64,000 nt of DNA from Xylogone sp. PMI_703 (lineage: Eukaryota; Ascomycota; Leotiomycetes). The DNA is taken from positions 559,359 to 623,358 of the forward strand of contig JAJTUQ010000012.1 of the NCBI GenBank assembly GCA_021399445.1, given 5' to 3'. The notes beneath the pieces are model-generated. The model made no database searches. It had not been told where the DNA came from and saw only the letters and a list, made by a program, of their open reading frames with translations. Positions within the stretch are counted from its first letter, which is position 1, and each line of letters starts with the position of its first letter. Position numbers and translations under genes: made by a program. Shown here piece by piece: positions 5,287 through 49,125 of this stretch.

Positions 5287-5892
5287 TGTCACGACCCCGC
5301 AGGGTTGTGACAAGCGACTTAAGTACAGGGCCTCTATAGCCGTCGCCTTAGTTAAATAAGTATTAGATAAGGCGGCTATCAGGGTCCTGGTTATGGTATC
5401 GCTAGTACTATCGCATTACTAGTACTAGCGAAAGGATAGTACAAGTTCAACACTAGTACTATAAAAAGGGTTGTACAAGCTAAAGGATAGTACTATCGGA
5501 ATTATAGTACTAACCCTTTGGTTGTACTAGCTAGGTGGTAATACTATCGGAGAAATAGTACTACCTTTCCGCTTGTGCTAGCGATTTGCTTGTACGTGCA
5601 AAAAGCTAGTACTCGCGATTAAGCGAGCACCTGGATTAGATAAGCGGATCCCATGGATCCCATGGATCCCAGGAGGATCGATGGGATCAATGGGACTCGG
5701 AGGAAAATCACTCTCTATATAAGTAGATAGAACTCACAGTAGATAGGAGCTTCGTGCTCAACTCAATTGATTTACAGCATACCTGCATTTCATAGTAACT
5801 ACCCTAAAGCCTTGTGAAGACATTCTCTTGCCCTTTACCTTCATCTATCATTTGAGTGATAGATAATCCCATACCCTTGTAGGAACGTTACA
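5287..5892 (+). repeat. solo LTR, copy 1 (inversion breakpoint)
   Basis: A 606-bp TG...CA long terminal repeat starting TGTCACGACC and ending GGAACGTTACA, with no internal retrotransposon coding sequence nearby. The middle is dense in TAGTACT/AGTACTA motifs that can pair with each other. By eye it is identical to the inverted copy at 48,520-49,125 and slightly diverged from the copy at 51,304-51,909. Its flanks differ (GGTAT left, AAGTG right), so it lacks a target-site duplication of its own. The same two pentamers flank the inverted copy in the opposite order. Confidence 0.9.
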
Positions 5893-6252
5893 AAGTGTAA
5901 GTGCTACAGGCTCAAGCGCTACAGGGCCTTAGGCCTGTAAATATGCTAAAGTAACCAACGGCCGCCGGGTGTTGACGATACAGTATGGTACAGCCCAGAC
6001 TTAAACCCAAGGCCCTGTAAGCGAAGACTTGTAGGGCCTAAGTGCTTTAGGTTATCGAGTTTCAAGAGTCAATTATCCCTTTATTCTACGCTAGTTATAA
6101 GTGAATTAATTTTTATACAGTCTGACTATTATAAAGTATCTAAATATATAGGAAATAGTTAAATATACTAAAGTTTAGTAAATCAATAATATTTAATGAT
6201 TAATTGATAGTCGTTGTGGCGCGAGTGGCACCCGGGCCTGTCGTATGTACAA
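5893..6252 (+). repeat. half of a small repeat element, left of breakpoint
   Basis: Diverged copy of sequence also seen after the inverted LTR (49,126-49,336) and at about 50,030-50,260. Shared landmarks are CAACGGCCG, TACAGCCCA, GAG[CT]TTnA..GTCAAT and the end block GTCGTTGTGGCGCGAGTGG followed by CCTGTCGTATGTAC. With the inversion undone, this half and the 49,126 half meet head to head around the LTR insertion. This suggests an element with long terminal inverted repeats. Confidence 0.55.
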
Positions 6253-7693
6253 AGACCCCGATTAATTATCAATCAGGGAGAAAGACGCGGAGAAGAATTT
6301 AGACAACGCCTCCTTGCCTATAGTGTGGAAGAGAGAGGTGCTAAGAGGTGTTGAGGTAGTATATACAGTAATATAATACAACTGACCAATCAGAAGGCAA
6401 GGTCTGGTAGAATAGGAGTGAAGGTGGTTGATTATTGTACGGTTGTAAGAACCGTACTTTATATACTACGTACAGGTCACATGATACACCGCACGTACAC
6501 GTGCTACGCACATGCCGTATACTGTTTTCCCTACCACAATAGAAGTATGTTCATAGTGAAAAGAATGTTTGCTGGAGATTTTCGCGACCTTTACAAGTAT
6601 GCATCAGAAACAGGATGTGCATCCCGGCATTTTGAGCGTACTGTCTACCACCGTATGGGATCGCATGTAACAGAGCAAGCTCTCAGCCTATCATAGACCG
6701 TGTAATTCAGGGCCATAATATAACAATCCGGACGTTCTGTTTGGAAGCTGCGCGCAGATAACGAAGTTCCATCAACACTTGCATACAAATAGAGAGGACG
6801 GACCATTCTTCAATCAGAAGCGTGATGTTACAAATCACTTCACCACAGCCAACAGCATGTGGTGAAACGGTAATACAAGAGAGAAAACACGAGACGCGCA
6901 AAGAGTAGTAACGTCAACTAACTGTACAAAAACAAGGCATACATTACTATTGAGGCTAGACCTTGTAATTAGATGACGGGATCGCCAAGCTGCACATCAC
7001 TCTGACGCTCACTTCTACCCTTTGAAACAACTCAATCATCAACACAGGCACCATATATCCCCTTTTATGCGATATGTTACAAGCGGGTGTTCCGATATTT
7101 ACAATCACCGAAAAATTTTAAGCTTTGTTAAAACTACTTGACCACAAAATTAATATGTTAGTATTTTAATGTGGCAGCAGAATATCTTAATAGATTTCAA
7201 ATGTTCAGGCATGAAAATTTAGCTACGGGTCAATCACGATCTATCCAACTTAGCAGAGTAATATGTAAGTAAGTACTTCGCATTAAGTTTCTTTATATCT
7301 CTTATAGTTAAATTATTTTAAGATGGACTGCGACAAGACCTAGGACATAAGAGCGTCGTTGACTTAAACTCAACTTGTAAGGCCTGTGAAGAGCGGCGCT
7401 GACATACAAGTCGGCATCAGCAGAATTTACTTGCATGCATGGACACTGTATACGAGATTAGATACAGTCCAATAGAATAATGTTTAAATGGCGACTAAGT
7501 TGATAATCGGGCTGAAATACCCACTGCAAACGGGGCCTTGATTTATATGCGACCAGTAAGATGGGCTCGGCCTTAGTACTAGTACTGGGTGTCTTGACTT
7601 AGGTAGTGAGTAACTTTAGCTCGAGCCATATCGCTGCTGCTAAATGGAGTACTCATATTCATCACGATTATTTCTGTGATTCGATACACTCGG
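6253..7693. other. intergenic 3' of the PKS, no gene seen
   Basis: AT-rich sequence with only short frames that show no recognisable domain. It contains the 3' flank of the PKS gene. No further feature can be supported. Confidence 0.5.
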
Positions 7694-10600
7694 TTACAAC
7701 CTGACGTGCCGGCTCTGGGAGGTGATGCGTGAGGCGAGGCCACTGATGGGACTGGATCCAAGAAGCTCGAGCAGTGGAACCTCTGCACCAAGGTCTTTCA
7801 TCACCCATGTGCGGAACTCAATTGCCACTAGAGAATCAACTCCATATGAGCTCAGCGCTTTTGAAACATCAATATCCTCCGCCGGGATTGAAATCATGCT
7901 GGAGAGCTTGTCTCGGATGGAGTCCAGGACAATCTCGGTCGCAGCTGCAATGTCTGGCGCTGACCCAAGTCTCTGCATCAGGGACTGGGTCGAATGTTTG
8001 TTGTCGCCATCACCAGACATCAACAATGCTCGCAGTGGAGGAATTGTCCGTATCTTAGCCCAAAGGGCGCTTTCCATGTATGGGGGTATATCTTTGCCTG
8101 CATCCTGCAGAGTACCGGCTGTGTGCAACCCGACAGCACAGCCGAAAAGCCCCTCTTCATCAATACTCTTGGCGGATGTGATAGCGGGCGCACTTTGAGG
8201 ATTCATGTAGAATTCGAGAATGGCAATGAGCTCTTCCTCGCTGACTTCGAGCATACTCATGGACAACAAATTCAGCATGGGTGTGAGCTGCATAGTGTCG
8301 ACCCAGTTCTCGGAAAGGTAGCCGACTGCAGTGAGACTGCCCAAGTCAATGGCTGTAGCCTTCAAACCTTGTTTAACACGGAAGCGTGCTAACTCGTCCT
8401 GGAAGGTATTTCCAGCATTGTAGTTAGCTTGACCACGGTTGCCGACGATACCACTGACTGAGGATAGCATAATGAAGAAGTCTAAATCTTTAGGAAGCAG
8501 GTTATGAAGGTTCCATGTGCCAGCGACCTTGGGCATAATGACCTGTCGGTAGTCTTCGAAAGTCATTGTACCTAAGGTCATATCCTGAAAGTAGACAAAA
8601 TGTTAGCAAGATTGCTGTGGCGTTCTTATAACGACAACAGATATGGAGTGGCTACTCACCTTCAACTGCATCGCGGCTTGAATGCAGCCCTTGATTGGGG
8701 GAAGTGCCTTGCAGCTGTTCAGTAATTTTCGCATGCTCTCCTCACTAGAGACATCGCATGGTTCAGCAATCACTCGACAGCCCCGGCTCTCCAACTCTCT
8801 GACTAGTTTCTCTGCCGGTTTTCTCGTAGCACCAGAGCGTGACATGAAAACGAGATTTCTCGCACCACGAGACACCATCCATCTGGCGATTGACCTGCCT
8901 AGGCCTCCGAAGCCGCCGGAAAGGACATAAGTTGCGTCTGCTTCGAAGCGATGCGGAGTTGCCCGAGGTGATCGGACCTAGAAAGGGATGAGAGTGAGTA
9001 CATTATACATCATTTGAAGGGAATGGGACCATGAACTTACTGGAACAATGTCATCTTCACTTGGCACCAGAACAATCTTGCCCATGCCCTTTCCATTTTG
9101 TAGCTGTCGGAAAGCGGTTGTAACCTCTCCGTAGCTATACACCGTGAGAGGTGTTGGAGGCCTCATTGCACCTCCGCCGACAAGCTGTAGCGTCTCCGCG
9201 AGCAGACGTCCTACGCGGGCAGGGTCCCGGGCTACAAGAATTGAGATGTCCACGCTGGCAAATGTAGTATTCTGATCAAACGGGCGCATTTGTAGCCGCC
9301 CGTTCTCTGCAATATCTTTCTTTCCCATCTCAATGAATCGCCCCAGAGGAGCAATACAGTCCCAGGACCGTCGAAGGGCTTCGCCACTCAAAGAGTTTAG
9401 TACAACGTCCACACCGCGACCGCCAGTTGCTCGCAAGATACTAGCCGCGAAATCCGTGTTCCGACTGGAGAAAATGTGGTCTTCTTTAACCCCATAGTTA
9501 TCCATAAGTAGACGCTTCTTTTCCACCGTTGAGACGGTTGCAAAAACTTCAGCACCAACCATGTTTGCGTATTGGATGGCTACCTGCCCAGTTCCGCCAG
9601 CACCAGCGTGGATCAGGATGGATTCACCCTTGGAAAGACGTCCCAAGTCGCGCAGACTGTATAAGACTGTTACGAAATTGCAAGGAACAGAGGCTGCATC
9701 TTCAAATGACATTGTGTCTGGAATCTTGACCATAGTGTCTTGTGGCGTCCGGAAGAATCTCTGGATACATCCCATCTTACTCGTGCCAGTGATGACAGCG
9801 ACTCGATCACCGGGATGGAATCTGTCCACCTTGGACCCGGTCGATCTGACAATACCAGCTCCTTCGAAGCCGAAGCAGTCATGTGCTATTTCACCCATGC
9901 CAATCATGACGTCTCGGAAATTTAGACCAGCAGCCTTGACCTCGATCTCGACTTCCAAATCGCCCAATGGATCAATAGCAGCGGGGTCATCCATGAATCT
10001 AAGACTGTCCAAATCTCCCGGCATGTCTGAATACAATTTTAATGGCCGTGAAGGATCCTCTTCCCAAGCCCGCATTGTGATTCTGGGACTATCGTCTAGT
10101 ACGCTGGACATAAATGTGTTGGCTTCTTGGTGTCTGTAAATCCGGCTGGTGTACATAATACCGTCTCGGAACTCATACTCAGCGCTTTTGGTACCCGTCG
10201 AATTCAAGAATTGGTGTGCGAATACCTTTGACATTATGGCGTGGTATTCTGACCAGCCTGAAGTTGCCGCTCCAGCTGTGTCGATATCAAGCGTAACAAT
10301 GTTCGTCTGAGTTGTATGTTTCTCCCACTTCGTCGTCCGCATGACACCTTTGACCATGGCAAAGGTAGGATTATCCGTACCCTTGGTGACCCACAGTATG
10401 CGGACGCAATTATTCAGCAAGTGTAAGAGCTTTTCAAATCCATTCTTGTCAAGATTCAGGAGAAATGAACTGTGACCATCCACAAGAATAATGCACGTAG
10501 CGGTTTCCAAAGACAGTCCACTCAGTTCCTTAAAGTTTACTGCCTGACAATTGTCCAAGCTATACTCTTTCTGGAGCGTTTTAGATAGCGAAGAGGCAGA

Positions 10601-13600
10601 GCTTTCGCTAGCTGTCTTGATGGATGTGTCAACAACATATACTGGCGATATAACTGACGTCGGGGAGTCTCTTGTTCCTGTTTCATCAACAGCCGTCGAG
10701 ATAATGATGCTGGAGATGTGAGACTCCGAAGAGCTATCTCTTAGCAGAATCTCGGTGCCATTGAAACCACTCTCACGAAGGACTGAGTCCCATTGCTGCT
10801 CTTTGAGCAGCGGGCCAGATTTTCGGTACTCCTCTGTGGCTAGCCACCAGCCAGGAAGAAGTCCCACCCACAAGCTTGTAAACATTGCTTCAGGCTGAAC
10901 GATCTCGTGCATAATAAGCTTCCCGCCCGGGTTTAAGAGGCCATGCAGGCGACGAAGAGTGGATTGAATGCTAGACGTCGCATGGATAACGTTTCCGGCT
11001 ACAATAACATCATACTTGTCCTCTTGAGCAAATCCCTGTGTGCCAGGGTCCTTTTCGAGATCTAATGTCTTGAATTTTATAATGCCCTCCCACGATTTGA
11101 ATTTCAGGGCTGCCTTCTCGAAAAATCCAGGTGAAATGTCAGTGTATGCATATTCGTGGATCGTCCAACTGTCGGCGTCCTCAGGAGGGCACATCGTTTG
11201 GAGAATGGGTAATGTGGTCCCACCCGTTCCAGCACCAATTTCAAGGAACTTCAGATTTCCACTCTTATGAGATAGAAGATCTAGATATGATTTGAAATGA
11301 ATTGGAATGTGCCCAAGTTCGAATTCCTCACGATAGACTCTATCTAGCAGCTGGCCATCGTCTTCTCCAAACATAAGGTAAAGAGGGTCAACTTCTTGCC
11401 TCAATACGGAAGTAATTTGAGTTCCTATCTTAACAATAAATTCACCGTTTGGCCCAGATTCGCTGGTTTCCTTGAGGAATGCCATACGGAACTCCGGATC
11501 AGAATTGCATTGGTTGAACGCAGCTTGATCAAAAAGCAAGGTTTGGCCGTCTTTGATAACTTTATCCTTCGCCTTGAGCCAGTTAATATAAAGCTGATGA
11601 TGCGGCAAGTATTCAAAGGCTTCGTCAGTGAAATCCAGTTCTTTGACAGCATCTTGAATCAAGAGGGAAGTTGCGACTTGCAGTTTTCGGAAGATGGTTG
11701 TGACAATATCATTAATTTCGGGCAAGTTCTTTGATTCAAAGAAGCTAGTAGTAGCAAAATCCGCATCACATTTCCATCTGACATTGTGGCAGAGTTCCCG
11801 AGTTGTTTGTACTGTACTGACATCGATATGGGTCACTTCTACGTCTGTAAATTGAACCATGATTGACGAACTTTCTTTGTCCCATACGGAGACATTCGTC
11901 CTATAGTCGGATGACCCGATCTTTTCAACTTGAGAGGTGCATCTGAATCGATGCCCGGGAGCGTTCGCAATCTCAGCAGATATCCAGACTTCTTTGAAAA
12001 GGGTTGGTACAAGGGGCTCATCAACGACCTCGGCTCCTTTGAAGTCCAGCACAGCCGGGTAAACCATTTGTAACATGCAGTCCAAAGTTGCTGGCTGCAC
12101 AGTATGGGGGTAGAAAAACTCATTTGGCATGACGGAAGCGAGATCAGTGATGGATACAATTCCAGTCGCGATACCACGCTTCTGACCGAGGGGCCCAAGT
12201 TTTACATCTGTAAGTGTCCTGAACGTGGGGCCGTATTGGATCCCATTTCTAGCTGACTTTTCGTAATGCCTTACACTGTCAAACGGCCTTTGGCACAAAG
12301 CGAGTCCTTCTTTTAGGTTGATTTGCTTGGTGGAAAGGTTCGAGTTACGGTCATCTTCAATAGGAACATCACTGTGCTTCTCATACTCGGTAGAGACCTC
12401 GCCGCGGCAGTGAACCCTCCATTCTTTCTGGATCTCATCGTAAGAGTAAACATGGAACTCGTACCATACCTTCGACTTGCTCTTAAAAGTCTCGGATACT
12501 GGGTTCATGGATAATACTGTTTCAATACCATCCGCGTTATCTGGAATTATGAGAGCAGTCTGGATTGTGAGATCTCTGAACCGAAATCCAGTAAGACGCT
12601 TGTTAGGATTGGCTAACTGTTTTGATGCCTCAAGTGCCATGATGAGATATCCAACTCCGGGATAGACGACATTATCAGTGACTTTATGATCCACCAACCA
12701 AGGAATTTCAGAAATTCGGAATATCTGTCTCCATTTTGGCTCATGTGGGTTCCAATCTGGTATGGGGGCTCCAATGAGATCCATCCGGGGATGTGCTCGG
12801 AATCGATAATCTCTGCTCAGACGACTTTCTTTCCAGTATTCTGTGTCGTGGTTGAAGCTGTAGGATGGCAAGGACGTCAATAGTTGGCCAGGTTTGCTGG
12901 ACAGGCCTTCATTTACTGAGTTCAGATTAATTGGGTATCCTCTCTCCCATAGATCGGCTGCCGTCTCAAGGAGAATATCACTCAGTGTGTCGTTACGTGC
13001 CATGATCCTAGAATAGTTCACTCCACTAATGTCGCCTGCACTAAGAACATCTCTTATGGCACTTTGCAGTGCGGAATGAGGGCCAATTTCAAGGATCTCC
13101 TGGATAGTGATGGACGTTCCAGACATCAATGCTAGGAGAGCTTTATCGAACAGCACGGGCGACGTAAGATTTTTGACCCAGTATGAAGCTGTTTCAACCA
13201 CCTTGCTTTGAATCTCCTCGCCTGTAACGGAAGATACCATGGTCACTGGTTGCTTTACATCAAGCTTGTCTACATCATGGATAGCTTCCATGAGACGATG
13301 GTATTCCTCTGCAACGGTTTCCATGTGCTTAGAATGATAGGCATTGGAAACCTTTAATTTCCGTGCAAACACCTTATCTGAATCCAGAAGGGTCTTTAAG
13401 GAGTCTATTGCATCTTCGTCGCCAGAAATAGTTAGGTTGGATGCTGAGTTGAAGCATGCAATGCTCAATACAGTGCCTTCATGAACTACCTTCTCTACGT
13501 ATGGCTGTAGATCTTCTTCTCGAAGACCGACGGCCATCATGGCACCCCGTTGGCTAACATTTTCGGAAACAACACCTCTGTAATAAGCTATTTTCCAAGC

Positions 13601-15896
13601 CATTTTTCTTCCAAGGTGCCCTGCAGCATAAGCAGCGGCAATCTCACCAGACGAGTGCCCCACAACACTCTGAGGGAAGACATTCCAGCTTGCCAGCAAC
13701 TCCACAGCAGCGACCTGGAGAGCTGTACATAGAGGCTGTGCCAGAGATGGCTTATTCATATCATAAGATCCCTCGCCCAATATTGCGTCAATCAGGCTCC
13801 ATTCGCTTCCTAGCATCTTTGATGTGTATTCAGTTGCATCCTCGAGACTCTTTCTAAAGATAGGGAAACTGATTAAGCTCTTACCCATTCCCAACCACTG
13901 AGCACCTTGGCCGGTGAAGACAAAGGCGAGAGCCGGAGTCTGGCCTCGGAATTGAACGGCTTTAAGCGTTTGGATTTGTTCAATAAGACTCTCGATGGTG
14001 GAGGCTCTGCATGTCGCACGCCAAGAAAAGATGGAGCGTCTACACGCCAGCGTGTAGGCGAGGTCATTCAGAAAGTCCTGCTCTGCTGAATGGCCAATAA
14101 TAGTGGCATGTTGTGACTTGATATTATCTATATATCTCTCTGCCATCCTTTGTATGCCGCCTTTATCAAAAGTTGAGAAGACGAATGTGAAAGGAGTTTG
14201 TCGCTGGGCTAATGTGCCGTTCGTGCCGTTCGTGCCGTTAGTATGAGACCCATTAGTGTGAGATCCATTACTCAATGTACCCAGAGTCAACCGTTTAATA
14301 TCGGCTAATGAAGGGATGTTGATGGAGGTACGATGCAGGCCATTAAGCTTATGAGCTGTAAGATAAGAGTAGGCATCACTGATGACCACATGGGCATTTG
14401 TGCCTCCGAATCCGAAAGAGTTGGCCGATGCGATGCGTGGTCCTGCCTTGGGCCAGGGGATAGCTTCCAACGGGAACGCTACGTTCCACTCATCTTGGCG
14501 AATTCTGGGGTTCACCTTTTTGAAGTTGAGATTTGGAGGAATAATACCCTCTTCCACTATCATTAATGTCTTGATCAGTGAGAGAATGCCAGCAGCGCCT
14601 TCGGTATGCCCGAGGGATGTTTTGACTGCTCCAATATAAAGAGGGCTGTCTCGTGGTCGGTCCATGAACGTCGTGGCAATAGCCTCGACCTCAATAGGAT
14701 CTCCTACGGCAGTTCCCGTGCCATGTGCCTCCACATATGCGGTGCTCTTCAGATCCAAACCCGCCTGCTGGTAGGTCTTTCGTATGAGCCGCTTCTGTGC
14801 CTCCATTGAAGGAACGAAGATGCCCTGAGTTTTACCATCTTGATTGCAACCGGTAGCACGAATAAGTCCACGAATCGTATTTCCATCCCGGATAGCATCA
14901 GATAGACGCTTTAAGATGACTGTTCCGATACCTTCCCCTCGAGAGTAACCGTTTGCTCGCTCGTCAAAAGTATATGATAGGCCGTCTGGAGAAAGGGCGC
15001 CAAGTTTACTTAGGTCATTCACTATATATGGATGAGTGATCAAATTGGCAGCACTAGCAATTGCCTGAAGAAGTGAGCAAACGAATTATATATGTTAACC
15101 CAATGCCTTATCTGTAGCATTTGAAAATTGTTAACTAACCATTTTGGAGTCTCCGGATCTCAAATTTTGGCAAGCCAAATGGACTGCCACTAATCCACTT
15201 GAACACGCAGTGTCCAAAGTCACACTGGCTCCTGAAAAGTCATAGAACCAGCTGATTCGGTTCGCAAGGATTGACTTGGCAGCACCGGTGCCTTTGTACT
15301 TGACCCACTGTTCAAAATCTGAATCAAGAATGAGTCTGTAGTCATCTGCAAATGAACCGACATAGACAGAGGTGTCGGAAGAGATGCATTGATCGAGTGG
15401 AATGCCGGCTACGCACCGTTAGTTTATCAATTGCTCTATTATACTTTACCTGCTGTCTCTGCTGTTTTTCAGGAAGAAGTTCTGGAGGTGCTTACCGTTT
15501 TCTAGACCCTCGTAGACATTTTCCAGCAATAACCTCTGCTGGGGGTCCATGCAAAGGACTTCATTTTTTGTGAAGTTAAAAAAGGCAGCATCGAATCGAG
15601 AAATGTCTTCAGCTAGGAAATTTCCGCCTTTAGTGTAGAACTAACTCCAAAATTTAGCTTAAGCTTTGAAACACAAGTAGTTGAAAAGAAAGATCAATTT
15701 CATGTCATACCATGCCTCCTCTATCAGGATTTGGGTGGTAATGGGAATCTGCATTCAGCTTTTCTGGAGGGAAAGGCCGCATGGCAGACCGCCCTTGGAC
15801 AAGATATCTCCATAGCCTCTGAGGATCAATGGCATCATCAGCAAACCGGGATGCGATGCCAATGACAGCAATGGGTTCAGTCTCTGGTCCGGCCAT
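7694..15896 (-). CDS. highly reducing type I polyketide synthase, KS-AT-DH-cMT-ER-KR-ACP
   Basis: Iterative HR-PKS of 2,610 aa in six exons: 15711-15896, 15496-15640, 15140-15408, 9041-15064, 8660-8977 and 7694-8584. All junctions are canonical and in phase. KS: Cys179 in DTACSSG, His314 and His353. AT: GHSSG nucleophile about residue 671. DH: His993 in VDHKVTD, Asp1195 in [10 protein letters not shown]-methyltransferase: SAM loop EIGAGTGG at about 1475. [12 protein letters not shown] at about 2021. [10 protein letters not shown] at 2229, Tyr2369 in QANYNAG. ACP: phosphopantetheine Ser2565 in GVDSL. There is no thioesterase, reductase or carnitine-transferase release domain. All active-site residues I checked are present, so a reduced, possibly methylated chain is expected. 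The KS-AT linker carries a Thr-Asn-Gly repeat. The ATG at 15,896 starts [14 protein letters not shown], the normal KS beginning. The closely related product cannot be named from sequence alone. Confidence 0.95.
14215..14275 (-). repeat. coding microsatellite in PKS KS-AT linker
   Basis: Near-perfect 9-bp and 18-bp repeats within the PKS exon encode [18 protein letters not shown]. The repeat is in frame, lies between KS and AT, and should be length-variable without disturbing either domain. Confidence 0.8.
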
Positions 15897-16045
15897 ACTT
15901 GAAAAGAAGTAAAAGGTGAATCTTGGGATACTGTTTCGAATAAGTGGGAAAGTGATGGGAAGTGTAGGAAGCGTAACGGAGGAAAGAAAAACGCGGAAAG
16001 CTAGCTTTCTATATAACTTCACTTAATCCTTAGACAGCTAGTGCA

Positions 16046-32366: not shown

Positions 32367-35300
32367 ATGGCTCCTAACCTTTCAGCGTCTCCGACGGCTT
32401 ATTGTACGGTCTGTAAACGATACCGTCCTTCCGAATTCTTCAAACGACGCCCAAATGGAGCCGGTTTTTATAATACATGCTCTACCTGCAAGGTTTGTAT
32501 GATTTACTGTTAATGGTTATGGAAATACTGACATGTCGATTTATAGAGCTACAGACGAGAGCGAACTGTACTCGGGGAGCTTGACGTTAACGTACCACGT
32601 CAAACGAGGCAGTCTAATAACCCAAGGCTTGGGAAGAGTAAACGACGTCGAATTGAGTTGTTACCGGTTCCTGACGTACCTCCGCGTCCTCCGATTGCTG
32701 AACCTTCGCGTGTGGAACCTCCCGTCGCCGAGCTTACGGCTGTAGAACTTCCCATACCTGAGCCTTCAGCTGAGCCTTTACGGTCGCTACCGGTCCCTTC
32801 ACCTCCTGTTACGGTTCTTGAACAACCGGTGTTACATGAACAGCTACAACCTGACGGTAGGAGTGGAGATGGTGGTCCGCGGGCACGTAAACCAGCGGGG
32901 TTTATATCTGCTTTTATATCGTCCGAGCCTCACTACATGGGTACGTTGAATCAGACCTGTACGAACTGTTTAGCACTGCAGTGGCCGGAGGAAAGTTCTA
33001 TGCGCTGTTGTAAAGATGGAGATGTGACGTTATCACCATTCCAACAACCGCCAGACCTCCTTATGAACCTTCTGAGAGGGAACGATCCAAGAGCAACGGA
33101 TTTCCGTAGAAATATACGGGGATACAACTCAGCTCTCGCATTTACGTCCCTCAAATACACTAAAGACGACCGAACAGACAATATGGGGCCTTGTATAACC
33201 TGTTTTACTATTCATGGTAGTTTGTATCATCTACAAGGGCCTTTACGGCCAGGTTCTCAGACTGTTCCTGCGTTTGCTCAATTGTTTTTTTATGACGCTG
33301 ATTATGCAACGAATATTCGACATCGGCAAGGGCTAGATCGAACGTTGCTTCGTGAGCTTCATACCATGCTTACGGACTGTAACCCGTTTATTCACCTGTA
33401 TATGACAGCTACAGAGCGTATGAACCGTCAACCAAATACGTCCCGATTGATATTGAACCCTCGGATGGAGTTGATTGCTGAAGGAGATTATCATCCAGGC
33501 CGTATCAACCTTCCCACTGGCAATGAAATTGCGGCTATTATTCCGGACGAGACGAGCCACTACAAGTCAAGAGATATCGTCCTTGCCGACCGCACTGAAT
33601 CTGGAGACTCGAGCTTTAAAAACGATTCCTGCAAGCCACCCAGCTTACATGCCACTACACTATGTACTCTTATTTCCACGTGGTGATTACGGTTGGGGTT
33701 TCAATATGGAGTTACACGGTCAGCGTGAAGGTCAACGTTTAACACTTCAGAAGTGGTTACAGTACCATTTACATCCTCGCAAAGATCAGCTTTCTTCTAT
33801 CTTTTACGGAGCTAGGCTTTTTCAGCAGTACGTAGTTGATGCGTATGTGACCGTAGAGACCTCAAGGCTTGAATGGAATCGTTTTAACCAGTCGCGAATA
33901 CGGGCCGATCTGTACCAGTGTGTATATGACGCTTTACACGTTGGTGATACGGATGCCGCAGATATAGGTCGTCGTATTATACTCCCTTCTTCGTTTGCAG
34001 GAAGTGATCGTGCTATGCAGCAACTGTTTCAGGATGTGATGGCTTTGGTACGACACTTTGGGAAACCTACTTACTTTATTACCATGATCGCAAATCCCAA
34101 TTGGCCGGAAATTCAGCAGAATCTTTTACCGGGACAGAGTGCTACAGATCGACCTGATCTGATAGCACGAGTTTTTGAAGGCAAAAAGCGTGAATTGGTG
34201 AAGGATTTGAAAGCTGGCGTCTTGGGACCTTGGGCTGGCCATGGCTTTACGATTGAGTATCAGAAACGTGGCCTTCCACATATCCATTTCCTTCTTTACA
34301 GACCGCGTGGCACTCCTGAACTTTCACCGGAGTTGATTGATGAGGTGATTTGCGCTTAAATCCCACGCCCAGGTCGTGATCCTCATGGCATCTTGCACGA
34401 ATAGTAACCACACATATGGTTCATCATCTTTGCGGCCCAGACTCAAAGAGCCCCTGTATGAAGAAAAAGTCGCCCGGTGAACCAGAACGGTGCTCAAAAA
34501 GGTTTCCCAAAAGGTTTACGGACGCTACGGTTGTTGTTGAGGATGGGTACCCAGAATACCGCCGTAGGAACGATGGCCAGACGTTTGTTCACAAATTAGA
34601 CGATTCTGGGCAGCCAATATTAGGAGATAATCGCTGGATTGTGCCTTATAACCCTTATTTACTGCAAAAGTTCAACTGTCACATCAACGTTGAGATATGT
34701 AGTACAATTGCGGCCGTAAAGTATATCCACAAGTATGTGTATAAAGGCCATGACCGCTCTCTCTTTCGGTCACCAATCCCAACGACAACGACGAGATTAC
34801 GCAGTATGTTCAGGCTCGGTATGTTGGCCCTATGGAAGCTTTTGCACGTTTAATGGAATACAAGACGCATCAAGAATGGCCTCCTGTGACACGCCTTCCT
34901 GTGCACCTCCAAGGAGAGCAGACTGTGAGCTTCCGTGACGATTTAGGAGCGGAAGCGCTGGCGGATCAGCTTGAGGCGTCTAATTCCAAGCTTATGGCCT
35001 TTTTTCAGTATAATGCTCAACACGAGGAGGGTCACCAGTGGTTATATCAAGAATTCCCTGAACACTGTGTGTGGGATACGAAGAATCGTTGCTGGAAAAA
35101 GCGTAGACAGGGTATATCGATTGGCCGCATGTATCACTGTAGCCCTGCCCATGGAGAGAGGTTTTATTTTACGGCTTTTACTGACTTCTGTACGTGGTCC
35201 CCGTTCGTTTGAGGACCTGTATGTAGTAGACGACGTACGATATGCATCATACTATGAGGCATGCGTTGCCCGAGGCCTAGCTGAGAACGATCAGGAATGG

Positions 35301-37068
35301 TTTCGTTGTTTTGAAGAAGCAATTCAATTTGATCCCGCCAGTCGTTTACGGACCACATTCCTTATTGGGTTGTGCCAGCGGTTGATTGGCAATCCTGCAG
35401 CTCTGTGGGATCGTTTTAAGAAGGAATTATGCCACGATTTGCGTTATTTTCTGAGCTCCCTCACGCATGCGAGCTTTCCAGTGGTGTTGGAACACCCGGA
35501 GTGTGATTACGGTCTGTATATATTGAACGAAAAGCTTCGCGATACGCAGTTAACGGTTGTTGATTTTGGCTTGCCGGCGTTCTGTTTTGATTGGTCAGCT
35601 ATATATGATCGCACTGTACAAGAGTATAATCCTATGGATGAAGCTAATATGGCTTCTAATATGGCTTCTAATATGCAAGCTCAGTTGAATCAGGACCAGC
35701 GCGAGTGTTTTGATACAATTGTTACCGCTGTTGAAAACGAGCCGCAAAATGCGCATTTTTACTTACAAGGGCCTGGTGGGACCGGTAAGACCTTTTTATA
35801 CAAGACCTTATGCCACTACTTTCGTGGATTGGGCAAGAATGTGCTCTGTGTAGCTTCAACCGGTATTGCCTCGCTTTTACTGCCAGGAGGCCGTACAGCC
35901 CATTCACAGTTCAAGATACCTATGCAATTGAACGAGGATTCGGTCAGTTCTATAACCAAGAATGGAAAGTTGGCTAAAATACTTCGAAAGGCCGATCTCA
36001 TTATATGGGACGAGGTTCCCATGCAAAATAAGCAGTGTTTTGAAGTTGTCCACAGGTTATTCTGCGATTTACGGTCCGTTGAAACTGAAGATGTTCTCTT
36101 TGGAGGCGTTCCTGTCATCCTGGGAGGCGATTTTGCTCAAATTCTACCGGTAGTGCCACATGGTACTCGAGCCGATACAGTATGTGCCTGTCTACAACGC
36201 TCTTTTATATGGCTACGATTACGCAAATTGCGTTTGAGGACGAATATGCGTGTGCGGCCGGGCGATGGAGAGGCTGATTTTGTTCGGTGGATTGGTGCCC
36301 TTCCTTACGGTAAAGCTCTCTACGGCCCTACTTCACTTCCTTCGACCATATCTACGGCCGTAAACTTAGATGGTTTACTCGACGACATTTACCCATTATC
36401 TCTGTTGCAAGCTGGCTGTAGAGATTACAGCGTTTTCCGTGGGAGAGCATTACTTTCAACCCTTAACGCGAACGTAAGGGCTTTGAACGATACAGTTTTA
36501 GGCCGGTTTCCCGCTCCTATGCGCACTTATTCATCGGTAGATTCAGCAGATGTTAACGAGGCAGACGATTCAGGGCACGTATACTCGGCAGAGCTATTAC
36601 AATCGATAGAATTGTCATCTTTACCTTCGTCTAAACTGACGTTGGCCGTTGGAGTGCCGGTAATGGTTATGCGTAATATATGCGCGCAGGAAGGGTTGTG
36701 TAATGGTACACGGATGGTTGTTACGGCTTTACGAAATCATACAGTTGAAGCGCGATTATTAGGTGGTGAATGGGATGGCCAGGTCCGATCAATTCCTCGA
36801 GTCAAGTTGACGTCAAACGAGGGAGATCTACCATTTACACTCTCTCGCAAGCAATTCCCCCTTCGTGTATGCTTTGCCATGACCGTAAACAAGTCTCAAG
36901 GTCAAGCGCGGCCTTGATCTACGATTACCGGTCTTTACACATGGCCAGTTTTATGTGGCAGTCTCTCGAGTAACTTCTGTATTAGGATTATCTGTACTTT
37001 TACCTGATCAAGCGACTACAACGTCGAATATTGTATATCCTGAAGTGTTGGAAGATTTTAGAGATTAA
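32367..37068 (+). pseudogene. Helitron Rep/helicase gene, frameshifted
   Basis: Rolling-circle transposon protein, now broken. Exon 1 (32367-32492) encodes MAPNLSASPTAY and a CTVCKR...CSTCK zinc ribbon. An intron (32493-32546) follows, then a proline-rich linker. The Helitron-like N domain (LLFPRGDYGWGFN) leads to the HUH nuclease motif GLPHIHFLL. The PIF1-family helicase has Walker A GPGGTGKT, Walker B IIWDE, and C-terminal motifs MTVNKSQGQ and [13 protein letters not shown], ending at 37,068. The frame shifts near 33,610, 34,400, 34,785, 35,170 and 36,905, and there is a stop at about 34,357, so no functional protein can be made. The best-preserved part is the helicase (open 34,971-36,917). 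Terminal TC and CTRR-hairpin ends were not located. Confidence 0.92.
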
Positions 37069-37103: not shown

Positions 37104-38052
37104 CTACTGTTCATCCCCTCCCCCTGTAATTCTATGATGCCTCTCCTCCTCTTCGCCGGCAGTTATAGACAACGCGGCCAGCTGCATCTTTAAATGGGCT
37201 TTGAGAGTTGTACGCTCACGATCGGAATAAGTGACGAATTCCTCTATCATTTCCTTAAAACTTCTCCGATATTGTTGACCATATCCTTCCACTGTAGTTT
37301 ACGGGGTCTCGGAGGAGCTTCAAACATTCAATTCAGTCAGTTACAGACCGTAAGATTATGGCGGTTGAACTTACCGTTTCCGTCTCCGTTCCCATTTGCG
37401 TTCCCATTATTTACGTTCCCGATCCCATCTGGCCGATAACCAACCGGCCCAATATTGATTGGTTGAATACGTCTACGGGGACGGCCTCCCGGGGCAGGTC
37501 CGCCTCCACCACCTCCCGCAGGAGGGGGGTTTGGGCCGTTACCGCCGCCCGGAGCAACAGGATTGCCACCATCAGGGTTGGCAATACTCCCGCCATAGTA
37601 ATTGGGTGGTGGTTGCCCCGGGACAACAGGAGGGGGTTGCCCTTGCACCTGTATTGCGGCGTTTAGGTTGATCAACACTGTTCAATATTCAATTAGCTTT
37701 TTATACGGTCTGTAAGCATAGAGAGTATTTACTTACGGTTCCGAATACTACAGCGCGCGCCGGAAGAGTTGTAATAACAATTGCAACAACTATCGCCCAG
37801 CAGACCAGGAACCGATACACATGCTGTCCATGGGCCATAGCCGTTTTGACAGTGCCGGCATGCTTGCGCTCCAACATTCTCAACTCCTCTCATCTGGCCG
37901 AGGAAAGCTTCGTCATTCTGGGGGCGGCCATGCCGAACATTACGGTTCAGGCGAAGGGTTGGAACGCGTACAACTGGCATTGCAGCTAGCTGTTGAACCG
38001 AAACAGTATTACGGGTCGTAAGACCTGAAATGGTAACCTGATTATTAGCCAT
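37104..38052 (-). CDS. three-exon gene with DUF3716-like cysteine motif
   Basis: Predicted 268-aa protein from exons 37737-38052, 37375-37677 and 37104-37291. Both introns are GTAAGT...CAG and share phase 1, so the frame is coherent. The first exon carries CRHCQNGYGPWTACV and GDSCCNCYYNSSGARCS, the CxxC...GxGP..xCV...CxxC pattern I associate with the fungal DUF3716 family (function unknown, possibly metal-binding). The middle is Pro/Gly/Asn-rich and probably disordered. The C-terminus is charged and helical. It starts from ATG at 38,052 and runs against the Helitron gene, with the 3' ends 36 bp apart. It may be a gene carried by the Helitron or a host gene beside it. Unlike the Helitron gene it shows no damage. 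Confidence 0.65.
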
Positions 38053-38099
38053 GGTGATGATTGAGGGTAGGGTTGAATATGGTCGGGAAACAATTATAT

Positions 38100-38918
38100 C
38101 GGTCTCACATGTTGATATATATATGTTCCCTTTCGATGCGATCCTTTGCCATTGTTCTTACACTTCTATGGTTATTCTTTGAGTTGAATACTAATAATAA
38201 CATCGATTGTGGTTCTTTGTAATCAATGCCACAAATATACGGACAAAGCCTGAACCGTAGGCTACGTATAAAGCTTGAATACGACCACACAAGCCAATGG
38301 CCAGAGCGCAGCGAGGGCTGTTGGCGTACAAAGCATTACGCCATAGAGATACGTACAAAGCATTATACCATAAAGATATAGATGGGGCTTGAGCCGTAAA
38401 GATGCGTATGAAGCTTAAATTAACTCATACAAGCCAATAGCCAGAGCGCAGCAAGAGCGATTGGCGTACAAAGCATTGCGCCATGGAGATACGTATAAAG
38501 CTTTATACCACAAAGATACGGATGAAGCTTAAGCCAATTTCCCGGTACTAAGAACGCCACGGCCGTAGGTCGATGGCGTCAAATACTAGAAAGATACAGA
38601 TAGGGCTTGAGCCATAGAGATACGTATGAAGCTTGAATACAGCCATACAAGCCAGTAGCCAGAGCGTAGCGAGGGCGATTGGCGTATGGAGCATTGAACT
38701 GTGAATACGTATGAAGCTTGAGCCGTAAAGATACGGATGAAGATTGAGCCAAACCCCTAGAATTAAGAACGCCACGGCCGTAAGGTCGATGGCGTCAAAT
38801 ATTATAAAAAAGATGCGTATGAAGCCTGAATATAAATATACGTATGAAGCCCAATATAAAAGATGTGGATGGAGCCGATATTAGTTCAGCACGTGACTCT
38901 AAGGGGTGCGAAGCACCC
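38100..38918. repeat. tandem AT-rich minisatellite with 33-bp hairpins
   Basis: Degenerate repeats of the type GATACGTATGAAGCTTGA surround three copies of a 33-bp fold-back, GCCAATAGCC-loop-GGCTATTGGC, at 38,293-38,325, 38,433-38,465 and 38,651-38,683. The loop reads AGAGCGNAGC(G/A)AG. The array ends in CACGTGACTCTAAGGGGTGC, a junction also seen in part at 52,193. The same hairpin recurs four times at 50.9-52.1 kb. Confidence 0.75.
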
Positions 38919-39109
38919 TGTCAGAGGTTATGGCGCAGTGGTTAGGCTACTCCACATATAAATTGTATGGTACAGAGACTCTATTCGTTGCCAGTCTTGA
39001 TGATGTACAGTACATAGGGGTAAACCGGTAAAACTCTTCTCTTTTACCGACCGTTAGCTTCTACAGCTATGATTGGCCAACGCCAATTACGTAAGCAATA
39101 TCTCTGACA
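38919..39109 (+). mobile_element. 191-bp TG...CA element, copy 1
   Basis: Short element bounded by TGTCAGAG and CTCTGACA, with a 5-bp target-site duplication CACCC on both sides (38,914-38,918 and 39,110-39,114). It contains TGGCGCAGTGG, a perfect match to a tRNA A-box, followed about 45 bp later by a weak B-box-like TATTCGTTGCC. There is no coding sequence. TG...CA ends with a 5-bp duplication fit a tiny LTR/TRIM; the A-box would fit a SINE. Other copies are at 49,427-49,617 (inverted) and 52,799-53,393 (interrupted). Confidence 0.75.
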
Positions 39110-42435: not shown

Positions 42436-43729
42436 AATTAAGCTGCACCCAGTCTAGCTATACACTAGAATCGAAGTCTCCAGATAACACCTCACAGAAG
42501 GGATAGTGTGAAAAAGGCTAATTAATGACTTCCCCTATCCAATAAAACGTGCATATGAATAGGGAGGAACAACCCAGGCAATGGAGAGGGGTGCGATGGA
42601 AGATTCGGACACCCGGCTAGCCGGGAGTGGATATTTGGCACAAGAAGCAGCGATAATGATGGAGAATAGGAATTATACTAACAATCGTGAGAGCGAAATG
42701 AGATGGTTGGTAAAAAGGGTCGAATGTTGGGGGAGTGGCAAGACGAGTTCGCAGTCTGGGTCGATATTATTCCGTAACTCCGATCCCTGCACTGACCAAA
42801 TATCTCAACCACACTAGAGTCAACTACGGGTCTAGCTAAACAGCGAGAGCCGTAAAGCATAGCAGGTTCTGTGATTTGGCCTGGTTCGACTCTGACTTGA
42901 TCAGACTAACCCCCCTAAAGCACCTTCAGTGTGCTTTACTTAGTGTCTTGTAGCTATAGTACCTTGCCTCGCGGCCTCTGCTTTGTATTTTCCCACTTCC
43001 AAAGTACATCATCGCCTCAAGTCCGCTGCTGGCCTAGCACTTCTTCTTACATAAATCAGGCGCATCTAACTACTTCTGAGAAATTGAGCGATGTTTTCTT
43101 CACCAATAGCCTCAATTACTTACCTTTCTAGCTTTATACTAGAAATTGACAGGTGTTACAACCTGCATGAAACATGACGGTGCGGCAACTATGAGGCATA
43201 CATATATTGACTTAACTATCAAAGAGTGCAGAGTCGTTAAAGATAGTGCAGGTGATAGTAACAATAATCTTGTACAATAGAGCCCCTCTTACGTATGATC
43301 TTAAGAACTTTATTAGTTTTACATTCTTTTAGCAGTATGAGAGAAAAAATCGTAAGGATCATTATATGAATGGCATGATGAAGCTGTTTTCTGGAAACTC
43401 TAGGAATAGAGCAGAGAGAGAAATGCTGGAAAGAGTACCTCGTATTAAAGGTCCTCTAGTATCAAAACTACTTGAGCTACGTTACAGATAATATTATTGA
43501 CATTTAGCAATCATTTGGACCGTAATTAGCCTCTGAAGACAAAGATCTACCGTTCTATCAACATCCGAATCCGTTCCCAGTCCCGGAACGATGCTCGTTC
43601 CGGGATTCCTTCAGAGCTTGATATGGAATAAGGAGTAACTATTTAACGGCCAACTTCCTGTAAATTCTAGAGGCCCTTGAGCGCGAGAACATCAACCATT
43701 CTTTAGTTGGCCTTCTTTCTCTCTTTACC
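42436..43729. other. intergenic between regulator and exporter
   Basis: No gene is supported. It contains the promoters of the divergent Zn2Cys6 pseudogene and the MFS gene, including the palindrome at 43,581-43,605. Confidence 0.5.
43581..43605. promoter_or_regulatory. 25-bp perfect palindrome in MFS promoter
   Basis: TCCCGGAACGA and its exact complement are separated by TGC, 125-149 bp upstream of the MFS start codon. Inverted CGG/CCG triplets at fixed spacing are the usual target of Zn2Cys6 dimers, so this is a candidate operator. I did not find the same palindrome upstream of the other cluster genes. Confidence 0.4.
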
Positions 43730-45637
43730 ATGCCGAGTTTTAATATTAGATCTTTTTCTAACAATGCAAAGTCCCAACAAGATTTAGTTACAGAAACCAC
43801 GAACGCAACCGTAACTGAAACGCCTGAAGATGACATTGTGTACCCTGATGCTATACACCGGGTTCTCATCGCCATTGGGCTGAGTCTCTCTGTCTTGCTC
43901 GTCGCCCTAGATAATGCCATCCTAGCTACTGCTATTCCCACAATAACTTCACATTTCAACTCCCTCGATGACGTTGGTTGGTATGGAAGTGCGTTTCTCA
44001 TCGCTCTGTGCGCCTTGCAGCCCACAGCTGGAAAAATCTTCCAATATTTCTCGTTGAAATGGTCTTATTTGATTTTCCTTGGACTCTTCGAACTTGGAAG
44101 TCTACTCTGTGGAGTAGCAGTATCCTCGAATATGTTGATAGTGGGCAGAGCAGTAGCTGGGCTTGGAGCCTCTGGTCTTTTCTCAGGAGCACTAACAATT
44201 ATTGCCCACACTGTTCCATTAGAGACTCGCCCAAGTATGTGACTCTTTTATAACAGGTTGTGGTCACCTTCACTCTAACGGTCAATATAGTATTCATTGG
44301 CATTGTTGCATCGTCATCACAGATCGCCAACGTCCTTGGCCCTCTCGTAGGAGGAGCACTCACACAGCACACAACTTGGCGTTGGTGTAAGCAAAAATAG
44401 CATGCCTCACTTTCACTAGAAGTATTATTAAGTATTCAACAGGTTTCTACATCAATCTTCCGTGCGGTGCAGTTACTGCGTCCATCCTCTTCTTCTTTTT
44501 CCATCCCCCTAAGCGCGTTCGTTCTTCTATGTCCCTGCGCGAGAAATTAGGTAGGGTTGATATTCCAGGGCTCGCCATCTTTGTCCCGGGAATCCTTATG
44601 CTGCTTCTCGCAATAGAATGGGGAGGCAGTAAATATGCATGGCATTCGGCGACTATAATTGGGTTACTCTGTGGCAGTGCTGGTACACTGGCAGTGTTCA
44701 TGGCCTGGCAATGGCACCAACAATCCGAAGCCAGTATTCCACCAAAGATTTTCTTGCAGCGCACAGTCTTCACTTCGTCTCTATCTTCTTTATTTACGTT
44801 TGGTAGCATCCAAATAGGTATATACTACCTCCCGATCTGGTTCCAGGTTATCAAGGATGCTTCTCCAACAAAGAGTGGAGTAATGTTCCTTCCTACCGTG
44901 ATCTCATGTTTGATATTCACTCTCGTAGCTGGCGGACTTGGTAAGCCTTATGCTCACGATGTTTAATTGTTAATTGTAATCTAACTATCTAGTCACCAAA
45001 TTGGGCTATTATAATCCCTGGATGTTAATTGGCACTATATTCCTTTCCATCGCCTGCGGTCTATTTTCAACATTTCACACTGATACTGGAAGTTCGAAGT
45101 GGATTGGCTACCAAGTCATTTTTGGAGCCGGAACAGGAGCTGCAATGCCGATGGTTAGTGTTTTGATTTTACCTTTGATTCAATTTATCATTGCTAATAG
45201 TATTTTATCCCAGTGCGTCATTGCTGTTATGGCGGTTCTCCCGCAAGATGATATCCCGGTTGGGACTGCAATTATTGTCTTTTTCCAGTTCCTGGGCGGC
45301 TCAATTGTCCTTGCCATTGCTGAAAACCTCTTCTCATCACAGTTAATGAAGGCACTGGTTGCCAACGTGCCTCAGTTAGATGCAGGCGCCATAGTTGCCG
45401 CAGGAGCAGAGTCAGTGAGAACAGTCGTGAGTCTTGAAAACCTGCAAGCGGTCCTGGAAGCATATAACACTGCTATTACTAGAACATTGGTGAGTCCTTC
45501 CATTGTTGCTATGATCAAAAGCTGACACACGGAAGTACGTCGGTGTCGCAGCGGGCGGAGCTGCATTCGTTGCATCCATTGGTGTACAGTGGATCAATGT
45601 GAAAGGAAAGGACTTGATGTCCGCAGCTGCGGCATAG
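43730..45637 (+). CDS. MFS multidrug/efflux transporter, DHA2 (14-TMS) type
   Basis: Plasma-membrane drug:H+ antiporter-type protein of 545 aa. Exons: 43730-44234, 44291-44386, 44443-44940, 44993-45153, 45214-45489 and 45536-45637; phases agree throughout. The first membrane segment runs into [17 protein letters not shown], the DHA2 signature. WYGSAFLI and [15 protein letters not shown] follow. [14 protein letters not shown] (assembled across intron 2) is the conserved loop of fungal toxin/drug pumps. [20 protein letters not shown] is in the C-terminal half and a last hydrophobic helix lies in the final exon. The fourth intron (60 nt) is stop-free and a multiple of three. It is a likely exporter of, or self-protection against, the PKS product. 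The gene looks intact, unlike the neighbouring regulator. Confidence 0.93.
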
Positions 45638-46637
45638 AAAGCCCGTGGATATATATGAAAGGGCATCGGTGTGTATGCAAAGAGTGATGGTAGATAAATT
45701 TCCCTTCCTTTTGGAAGATGCCTTTTGTGATTTATACGTGAATAGCAAATTATAATTGATTAGAATAGAAGGATCTCTGGAAATATGAATAAGTTCCGGG
45801 CAATCTGAGAATCTTCTGCCATAACTGTAACATAGGCTTTTGATATCAACAATATGAACAGTGATGTACTGCATAGTACGGTCATGGTCGACAGCTTTGA
45901 ACTATAAATCCAGAGAACTTGCCAATAGAAGTTAGCCTACGCTTTATAAGCGCGTGAGATAAGTAATAGTAAGTTTCAGAATTACGCCAGATTAGCTACA
46001 ATAGTCAATAAGTAACACAGTTGGAAACGCGACACATATATTACTGGGTACGGCGAGCAAAAGCTGCAAAACTGCAGATCTGTCGAAAATTCTCCCTGCT
46101 GCTAGTACTCATGAAATATTCATTTGGTTTGGACTTTCTTTTTCTGGTTTAACTAATCCCAAGTCTATAATAATTTGTCTTCAGAAATTCTCGTAGCAGG
46201 ATCTAAAGCTTTACTTCAAAACTTAAATATCGTACTCCACAATACGCAAGTACGCCTAGCTACCTAACCATGCACGTCTGTTTGCTTTAAACCGAAACAA
46301 GCAAATACGGCCTAACGACTTTCCATCTCAAAACAGCTTGATTTAATACTTCTTCGTGGTTCCATTTTTCACAGCTTCGACCGACTCAATTACGGTGCAA
46401 TATAACAACATTACATATAATTGAATTAAATCACATGCATCTGATGATTGATTATATCTCTAGCAATATATTAAATCAATATTGACCAATCAATTTAAAT
46501 ATTCTTAGTGTTGTTCAAGGGTTTGTATATAACAGTTATTTTTAGAACACCTCCCGATTCAGGGGTAAAGTGGTAAAACTACACCCGCGATATTCAACAA
46601 TACAACAACAACACGTTCTATTCGATACCTATCGGCC
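45638..46637. other. intergenic, MFS 3' flank and hAT 5' region
   Basis: No gene is supported. Overlapping minus-strand frames just after the MFS end are shadows. The 5' terminus of the hAT element must lie within this interval, but I could not identify its inverted repeat. Confidence 0.45.
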
Positions 46638-48519
46638 ATGGAGAAATTAGACAATCTAAATGTGCTCACGCCTACCCGAACACGTCAAAATACTCATCCG
46701 AATTGGAAGAGAACACTGAAATATGGTGGTATCTTTAGCCCAATAGCACCCCCTTCACCGAAAAGGACTCGACTTCGATCACCTTCAGCGTCTTCAATCT
46801 GTAGTATACCGCAGGTTCTATCTACTTCAGCACCTCAATCGGTAGTTTCTACTTTAAATGACGAGATTTCAGCATCTCAATCAATATCACAAGTTGCTCA
46901 ACCGCTTACTTCTGATGTTATCGTTGTGCAACCGGTTGACGATACTGCGAAATCACAGCCGCGAAGTTGGGTCTGGGAATACTTTAAAACCATAGATGAG
47001 CCTACTCTACCGCGATAGAGGCACAAAGAGTCAGATATCTATGATTTGATGGAAAAGAGACACATCTGTCAGGTTAATTCAACCTGTAAATGAAGTCGTC
47101 TTGCATCGAAGTTAAAGAGTTTAATTAGTGGTTTGTCGCATCATTTACTGATCGTTCATCGTATCACCAAACACTCAAGAACTACTGCAATTCGTCCTGC
47201 GACAATGATACCTGATTGGCTAGCAAAGGCAGACAAGTAAGGTGTTGTTAGCTTTGAAGATGTGCTCTTGAATTGGATTATTTCATTATGCCAATCATTT
47301 ACGGTCTGTGAAGGTCCTACCTTTGCAACCATGATTAAAGCTGCCAGGAAAGCCAATATTTCGAGTAAGAACCTTCCTTAAGGAGACATGATATCAGATC
47401 GAATGATAATAAGGTTATGGTCGGTAGATATGAAGCTAAGAGAGTTGTTAAAATCGACTTATTCTACATTTACGATCACACTTGACGGTTGGACGAGCCA
47501 AAACTCTATTCCTAGGCCTACAATCAATATAACTTGGTTAACGGCTAAGTTCAAGCATATCAGAGCTTGCGCTGAGTTCATAGAACTCCAAGGAACCCAT
47601 TCAGGTGAAGCTATAACACATATTGTGATAGAAACACTAAATCGGTATGATATTGGCCATAAACTATTGACGATAACGACTGATAATGCTTCAAATAATG
47701 ATACTCTACATTTAGAATTGTATCAGAGATTGAAGCAACAGTATAACGACCATCTATGTGATTTCCCGATCGAAAGAACTATGCGATACCAAAACAACTC
47801 TCAAATACGCTGTTTTGCCCGTATATTGAACCTGGTGGTTAAGGCTATTCTGAAAACTTTGAAGGCAGGCTCATACAAGGAAGCGAAGCAACTTCTTGAG
47901 GCTTCGAAAGGCGTTATACGACCTCCATATAATGCTAAAAGTGCTATCTTTAAGCTTCGACTTCTGGTTCTATGGATTTCGAAGTCCCCTCAACACCTTC
48001 AGAGATGGAAGAGCTCCCGAGCACCAAAAGTCATCAGTTATGACGTTGATACGCGGTGGAATAGCACATACAAGATGATATGCGATGCGGAGGCTTGCAA
48101 AGGTTTCCTTGACCGCTTTACTGAAGCAGAGCCAGAGGTCGCTGAGTTGAGATTACATGCCGAAGATTGGGTGCAACTCTCGAATTTGCAGGTTTTATTC
48201 AAACCGTTTCTTGAATATACAGAGTATGTATCTCGAGAGCAACCATCGCTTCACATGACGGCGTTGTTATTCCAAACCCTTGAGCAACAGCTTCTTGCTA
48301 TTCTTGAACCACAAGCTCGATATGATTCGACAATTGTTAAAGCTGTAGAAGAAGGAATTCGAGTATTCCGCATATATCACGGTTATGTCAAAGACAACGA
48401 TATTTATTATATCGGATCACTATTAGACCCTCGAATCAAGGCAAGATATATCAGAAAGGCTAGTAATAACCCTGACATGGTTATCAACCGAGTTAAAAGC
48501 TTTCTGAGCCGAACATACC
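46638..48519 (+). pseudogene. hAT transposase, N-terminal and catalytic part (split by inversion)
   Basis: Most of a hAT transposase in one reading frame from ATG 46,638. A BED-type zinc finger (WVWEYFK..., HICQ..STCK, then SHHLLIVH) is followed by catalytic-core motifs TLDGWTS and TDNASNND, FARILNLVVKA, and YDVDTRWNSTYKM. Four in-frame stops (47,016 TAG, 47,091 TGA, 47,238 TAA, 47,379 TAA) are all explained by C-to-T or G-to-A changes, and there is no frameshift. This is the pattern left by repeat-induced point mutation. The frame is cut at 48,519 by the inverted LTR. Its missing C-terminal domain is at 4,881-5,286 on the other strand. Confidence 0.88.
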
Positions 48520-49125
48520 TGTAACGTTCCTACAAGGGTATGGGATTATCTATCACTCAAATGATAGATGAAGGTAAAGGGCAAGAGAATGTCTTCACAA
48601 GGCTTTAGGGTAGTTACTATGAAATGCAGGTATGCTGTAAATCAATTGAGTTGAGCACGAAGCTCCTATCTACTGTGAGTTCTATCTACTTATATAGAGA
48701 GTGATTTTCCTCCGAGTCCCATTGATCCCATCGATCCTCCTGGGATCCATGGGATCCATGGGATCCGCTTATCTAATCCAGGTGCTCGCTTAATCGCGAG
48801 TACTAGCTTTTTGCACGTACAAGCAAATCGCTAGCACAAGCGGAAAGGTAGTACTATTTCTCCGATAGTATTACCACCTAGCTAGTACAACCAAAGGGTT
48901 AGTACTATAATTCCGATAGTACTATCCTTTAGCTTGTACAACCCTTTTTATAGTACTAGTGTTGAACTTGTACTATCCTTTCGCTAGTACTAGTAATGCG
49001 ATAGTACTAGCGATACCATAACCAGGACCCTGATAGCCGCCTTATCTAATACTTATTTAACTAAGGCGACGGCTATAGAGGCCCTGTACTTAAGTCGCTT
49101 GTCACAACCCTGCGGGGTCGTGACA
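48520..49125 (-). repeat. solo LTR, copy 2, inverted (inversion breakpoint)
   Basis: The same 606-bp LTR as 5,287-5,892, in opposite orientation; I saw no difference on comparing the two by eye. In LTR orientation its 5' flank is AAGTG and its 3' flank GGTAT, the reverse of the flank pair at 5,287-5,892. It interrupts the hAT reading frame at codon TAC-C. Confidence 0.92.

Follow-up and report, generated by a model that had tools for sequence, protein, structure and literature searches.

Two inverted solo LTRs with exchanged target duplications point to inversion of a 42,627-bp polyketide-gene block in Xylogone sp. PMI_703

How did two copies of one long terminal repeat (LTR) come to lie in opposite orientation at the ends of a block of polyketide genes, each with a different pentamer on its two sides, and has the block between them been turned around? 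The question is raised by a 64,000-nucleotide stretch of Xylogone sp. PMI_703, called here the window (contig C4, positions 559,359-623,358), which contains no N and belongs to a 50.1-Mb genome assembled in 25 contigs, the largest of 9.08 Mb. Xylogone belongs to the Leotiomycetes, and the strain is a mycoparasite according to the accessible part of PMC11708051. A preliminary description, made from the sequence alone, had proposed that the block was inverted through two inverted solo LTRs, and this proposal is supported by the swapped target duplications and by both insertion sites once they are restored. Homologous crossover between the two LTRs is considered to have turned the block with a probability of about 0.9, judged from the sequence. 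The features on which the argument rests are as follows.

5,287-5,892, plus strand: solo LTR A at the left breakpoint, Ty3/gypsy-type family (base-by-base comparison and family survey)
48,520-49,125, minus strand: solo LTR B at the right breakpoint, 606/606 bases identical to A
5,282-5,286, plus strand: GGTAT, half of the target duplication of site P
48,515-48,519, minus strand: GGTAT (ATACC on the plus strand), second half of the site P duplication
5,893-5,897, plus strand: AAGTG, half of the target duplication of site Q
49,126-49,130, minus strand: AAGTG (CACTT on the plus strand), second half of the site Q duplication
51,304-51,909, plus strand: LTR C, a control with its own duplication intact (TAGAA on both sides)
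5,893-48,519, no strand assigned: block of 42,627 bp read as inverted from the swapped duplications and restored sites

The coordinates, orientations and flanking bases given for LTRs A and B in the preliminary description were correct to the base, and so was TAGAA on both sides of LTR C. The base-by-base alignment it had called for gave zero differences over the 606 bases of A and B, which stand in opposite orientation with 42,627 bp between them. LTR A is flanked by GGTAT on the left and AAGTG on the right; LTR B, read in its own orientation, is flanked by AAGTG on the left and GGTAT on the right. Homologous element copies in opposite orientation are thus found at both breakpoints, and their target-site duplications are exchanged. 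The probability that both pentamers would be swapped by chance in one given pair is about 1e-6. The number of chance swaps expected is 1.2e-5 over the 10 pairs that can be formed from the five solo LTRs without a duplication in the first scoring. For the 40 LTRs surveyed, which make 780 pairs, it is about 9e-4.

The survey of the family across the genome gave 47 matches from 40 scored of the 364 candidates, so that the family count is a lower bound; 40 near-full-length LTRs were kept and seven short matches were dropped. The copies were sorted into solo, 5' and 3' LTRs by the primer-site or purine-tract words adjoining them, which gave eight 3' LTRs, nine 5' LTRs and 23 solo LTRs; a 5-bp duplication was present in 18 of the solo copies and absent from 5. 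One of these 5, L102, is a 3' LTR with a shortened match, and the bases to its right are those that stand to the left of its partner L103; it had been misfiled and was moved by hand, leaving 22 solo LTRs, 18 with a perfect 5-bp duplication and four without. The LTR ends are TGTCAC...GTTACA. Two that keep their duplications, L073 and L077 (C23:835,676 and C19:4,373,725), have the same 40-base flanks on either side, which reduces the 18 to 17 independent sites; they probably lie in a segment duplicated between contigs. The four solo LTRs without a duplication are A and B, which are exact partners, and L004 and L007, whose flanks match neither one another nor those of A and B. The internal piece of a full relative encodes a protease followed by reverse transcriptase, RNase H and an integrase zinc-binding domain, an order which we take to be the mark of Ty3/gypsy elements and on which the family label is based.

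Site P, the GGTAT target, lies in a gene for a hAT-type transposase, and its two parts are now found at opposite ends of the block.

46,383-48,519, plus strand: 5' part of the hAT-type element, split by LTR insertion and inversion
4,569-5,286, minus strand: 3' part of the hAT-type element with the dimerisation domain, its end placed by eye at ...GAACGGAGCCCTA

The right half (47,382-48,518) matches two close paralogues elsewhere in the genome, and the left half of the gene (4,884-5,285, minus strand) matches these two as well; in both, the order of the halves agrees and one codon at the junction is shared. Protein identity of the right and left halves is 80% and 83% to the paralogue on C2, and 76% and 81% to the one on C6. 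The halves are also adjacent at the protein level in three more distant paralogues (C3, C4 and C24). It had been proposed that the transposase frame stopping at 48,519 continues on the minus strand from 5,281 once one ATACC is removed; the rejoined halves do form one frame of 512 codons with no stop across the single-copy target. The predicted pre-inversion site, with the target kept once, aligned across the junction over its whole 1,202 bp with 2/2 close paralogues (90% identity and one gap in L010, 88% and three gap openings in L011), both of which are undivided at this point. The dimerisation domain expected in the continuation was detected in the left half (Pfam Dimer_Tnp_hAT, PF05699, E 2.5e-11). 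On C7 the right half has a distant relative (24% identity) that forms a single 709-amino-acid frame ending in PF05699, and the hAT label rests on this relative together with the domain in the left half. Another relative of the right half, a 555-amino-acid frame on C24, gave no Pfam match.

The window copy of the hAT element lacks about the first 430 bp of the two close paralogues at its 5' side and is open apart from the split, and the paralogues on C2 and C6 contain several stops each. These paralogues, L010 (C2:633,975-635,510) and L011 (C6:176,840-178,375), show an excess of C>T/G>A changes with respect to the window copy: L010 has 250 of them and 70 transitions in the reverse direction, L011 has 274 and 70, with a mild preference for CpA. 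The excess suggests that a process resembling repeat-induced point mutation may have acted on both paralogues; it dates nothing about the inversion.

A second split element, which the preliminary description did not include in its evidence, was found at site Q, the AAGTG target.

49,126-49,330, minus strand: left half of the Q element, outside the block
5,893-6,246, plus strand: right half of the Q element, inside the block
49,331-49,334, minus strand: GTAC flanking the Q element, outside the block
6,247-6,250, plus strand: GTAC flanking the Q element, inside the block

In the present order, pieces of the two arms of this element form a direct repeat (6,144-6,251 and 49,228-49,335, 81% identity) whose copies are separated by 43 kb. 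With the block turned back the element has terminal inverted repeats that match at 36 of their first 40 bases, the ends of the element being ATACGACAGGCCC, and GTAC stands on both flanks (TGTACA if the ends are set one base inward); these flanks pair only after the block is turned back. The junction of the rejoined site was crossed by all three fetched paralogues (C1, C20 and C21) at 77-80% identity under permissive scoring; among the alignments listed under stricter scoring, L069 and L070 (on C1 and C20) cross it. Inverted ends, a flanking direct repeat and several genomic copies characterize the sequence as a putative non-autonomous terminal-inverted-repeat element. The relatives on C1 and C21 have 5-bp direct repeats at their ends, as judged by eye.

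Alignment to paralogues thus shows that undoing the inversion restores the pre-insertion sequence at both P and Q. The present junctions behave otherwise: alignments to eight paralogous loci stop at the junction or at most 2 bases past it, and none crosses. Taken together, the swapped duplications, the continuity of the hAT gene and the restored Q element support the reading that the block now runs opposite to the orientation it had when the two LTRs inserted.

The following course of events is proposed. The first step would have been the insertion of two LTR retrotransposons of one Ty3/gypsy-type subfamily, with opposite orientations and about 43 kb between them, one in the hAT-type transposase gene (target GGTAT) and the other in the short terminal-inverted-repeat element (target AAGTG). 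Each insertion would have made a 5-bp target duplication, and both elements would then have been reduced to solo LTRs, presumably before the block was turned. Crossover between the inverted LTRs is the likely joining step; it would have turned the 42,627-bp block, most probably in the organism and not merely in the assembly. The LTRs would thereby have traded their right-hand flanks, and the hAT gene and the Q element would each have been divided between the two ends of the block.

The perfect identity of A and B bears on the age of these events and on the source of the copies. With 0 of 606 positions different, divergence is below 0.5% (95%). In relative terms, then, the two insertions are recent, or else a conversion between the LTRs is. 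Identity as such is no proof of gene conversion; that argument was rejected in view of L083 and L084, identical solo LTRs with different targets (CATTC and CTTAG) on separate contigs, and of 11 further copies identical to one another. Three bases occur in A and B but not in the remaining 38 copies, and the closest LTR among the copies examined differs by 3.0%, so the source of A and B is not among them. A full-length relative at C9:137,415-144,616 has clearly different LTRs, one belonging to the group of 11 and the other not; recombination, or mutation on one side of the element, may be the cause.

Several points weigh against the crossover reading or against parts of it. Under stricter scoring the alignment listed for L071 (on C21) begins 23 bases to the right of the Q junction. 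The right hAT half alone gave no Pfam match, and comparison with solved structures gave nothing credible (two matches, E 0.65 and 0.92). L004 and L007 lack a duplication and no partner was found for either. The polarity of the inversion rests on element insertions and not on synteny. Finally, the chimerism expected of a crossover leaves no trace between copies as alike as A and B and cannot show here.

To this must be added that a flip by the assembler, in which the genome keeps the uninverted order and the block was turned at the identical 606-bp inverted repeats, predicts the very same letters, with swapped duplications and restored sites, and that A and B do provide such identical repeats. 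This explanation is nevertheless judged unlikely for an assembly that holds 50.1 Mb in 25 contigs of up to 9.08 Mb. In the assembly the family has three full-length members (C25, C21 and C12), with LTR starts 6.6 kb apart and all six LTRs identical, and the window has no N; this contiguity and the assembled identical-LTR copies imply that the reads were probably much longer than 606 bp. If, on the other hand, there had been no inversion, the flanks would resemble one another by chance, or conversion would have acted between LTRs inserted without normal duplications, of which L004 and L007 are possible further examples. The low chance of a swap in a given pair makes the former scarcely credible, and conversion would not account for the rejoining, at two independent sites, of a divided gene and a divided inverted-repeat element; the explanation as a whole is the least probable of those considered.

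The inversion could also have been made in one step by integrase, if two sister cDNAs in one complex had each bridged the two sites, attached to P by one end and to Q by the other, and the elements had become solo LTRs later. Such an event would give the duplication swap, the inverted orientation and the perfect LTR identity from one cause, and it would account for the private bases common to A and B and for the lack of any other close copy among the 40 LTRs examined. The scheme, devised here and taken from no paper, needs two concerted abnormal strand transfers, and the identity of independent solo LTRs arises without it, as L083 and L084 show. The evidence at the locus does not separate this route from a later crossover, and it is regarded as very improbable.

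According to the accessible part of PMC2775673, inversions made by ectopic recombination are recognized by element copies in opposite orientation, exchanged duplications and chimeric copies, and identical copies at the breakpoints are the expectation of hybrid-element insertion. The latter route, in our own reading, concerns cut-and-paste elements, and two cDNAs bridging two sites would be its nearest counterpart for a retrotransposon. As far as that source could be consulted, the inversion 2z3 generated by Galileo in Drosophila buzzatii (Delprat et al. 2009, PMC2775673) likewise has opposite-orientation copies at its breakpoints with exchanged duplications; breakpoint sequences of non-inverted chromosomes were reported there as well, whereas one strain with identical solo LTRs is available here. 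The Ty-mediated inversions of yeast, named in the same portion of PMC2775673, also arose by recombination between LTR-retrotransposon copies; the present case comes from a filamentous ascomycete, and both empty sites can be recovered from paralogues. Secondary-metabolite clusters of Tolypocladium inflatum (PMC6367777) similarly show inversions and a moved polyketide synthase (PKS) segment near Gypsy LTRs and hAT elements. The accessible part of that study describes the association of clusters with repeats and a comparison of strains, and no base-level exchange of duplications was met in it, whereas here the breakpoints are placed to the base in a single strain. No account of this inversion was found in the portions of the literature that could be consulted; the mechanism is textbook, the case is new.

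At this locus an LTR-mediated inversion in a filamentous fungus can be read cleanly and to the base, and paralogues elsewhere in the genome allow both insertion sites to be recovered; a genome-wide check of solo-LTR duplications can expose rearrangements from a single assembly. The breakpoints lie in repeats and are flanked by identical LTRs, so a second turn of the block with its polyketide genes is conceivable in principle. Two short high-copy repeat families also adjoin the breakpoints (6,319-6,541 and 49,427-49,617), with more than 30 listed genome matches each.

The inverted block carries the following genes and gene pieces.

7,697-15,896, minus strand: highly reducing PKS gene, deposited model of 2,610 amino acids
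18,399-19,214, plus strand: short-chain dehydrogenase
20,969-21,970, plus strand: cytochrome P450
23,961-24,752, minus strand: FSH1-type serine hydrolase
27,404-27,784, plus strand: short-chain dehydrogenase (piece)
33,475-36,914, plus strand: Helitron helicase pieces (Helitron_like_N, PIF1)
37,732-38,157, minus strand: DUF3716 open reading frame
43,664-44,963, plus strand: pieces of a transporter of the major facilitator superfamily (MFS), TRI12 type

The content ascribed to the block in the preliminary description was thus recovered in its PKS, short-chain dehydrogenase, P450, hydrolase, Helitron, DUF3716 and MFS signatures. The Zn2Cys6 pseudogene also listed there was not: no such Pfam match was obtained in the reading frames tested and no match to one strict pattern in six frames, although a decayed copy could escape both. 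The PKS is 100% identical to a deposited Xylogone sp. PMI_703 protein over the part searched. The possibility that it is a pseudogene, raised by two single stops (8,603-8,605 and 8,978-8,980) between open stretches of one frame, was rejected, as both stops fall in stretches that look by eye like GT...AG introns and the deposited model spans them. With both breakpoints inside repeats, the genes of the cluster should have stayed unbroken by the inversion as such, and none appears to have been broken; any effect on the genes of the block would probably come through their changed neighbourhood.

The preliminary description spoke of a whole polyketide cluster, which is stronger than the evidence allows; an open reading frame that encodes a helix-loop-helix domain is located at 1,244-1,648, a short way beyond the left edge of the block. 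A search of the window with Rfam gave nothing at gathering thresholds. The right end of the window is probably the end of the contig; TTAGGG is absent from its last 200 bases. A 1,097-amino-acid open frame with no significant Pfam match occupies 54,459-57,749 on the minus strand, and LINE-like endonuclease, reverse transcriptase and RNase H pieces extend from 60,291 to 64,000, also on the minus strand, continuing to the window end.

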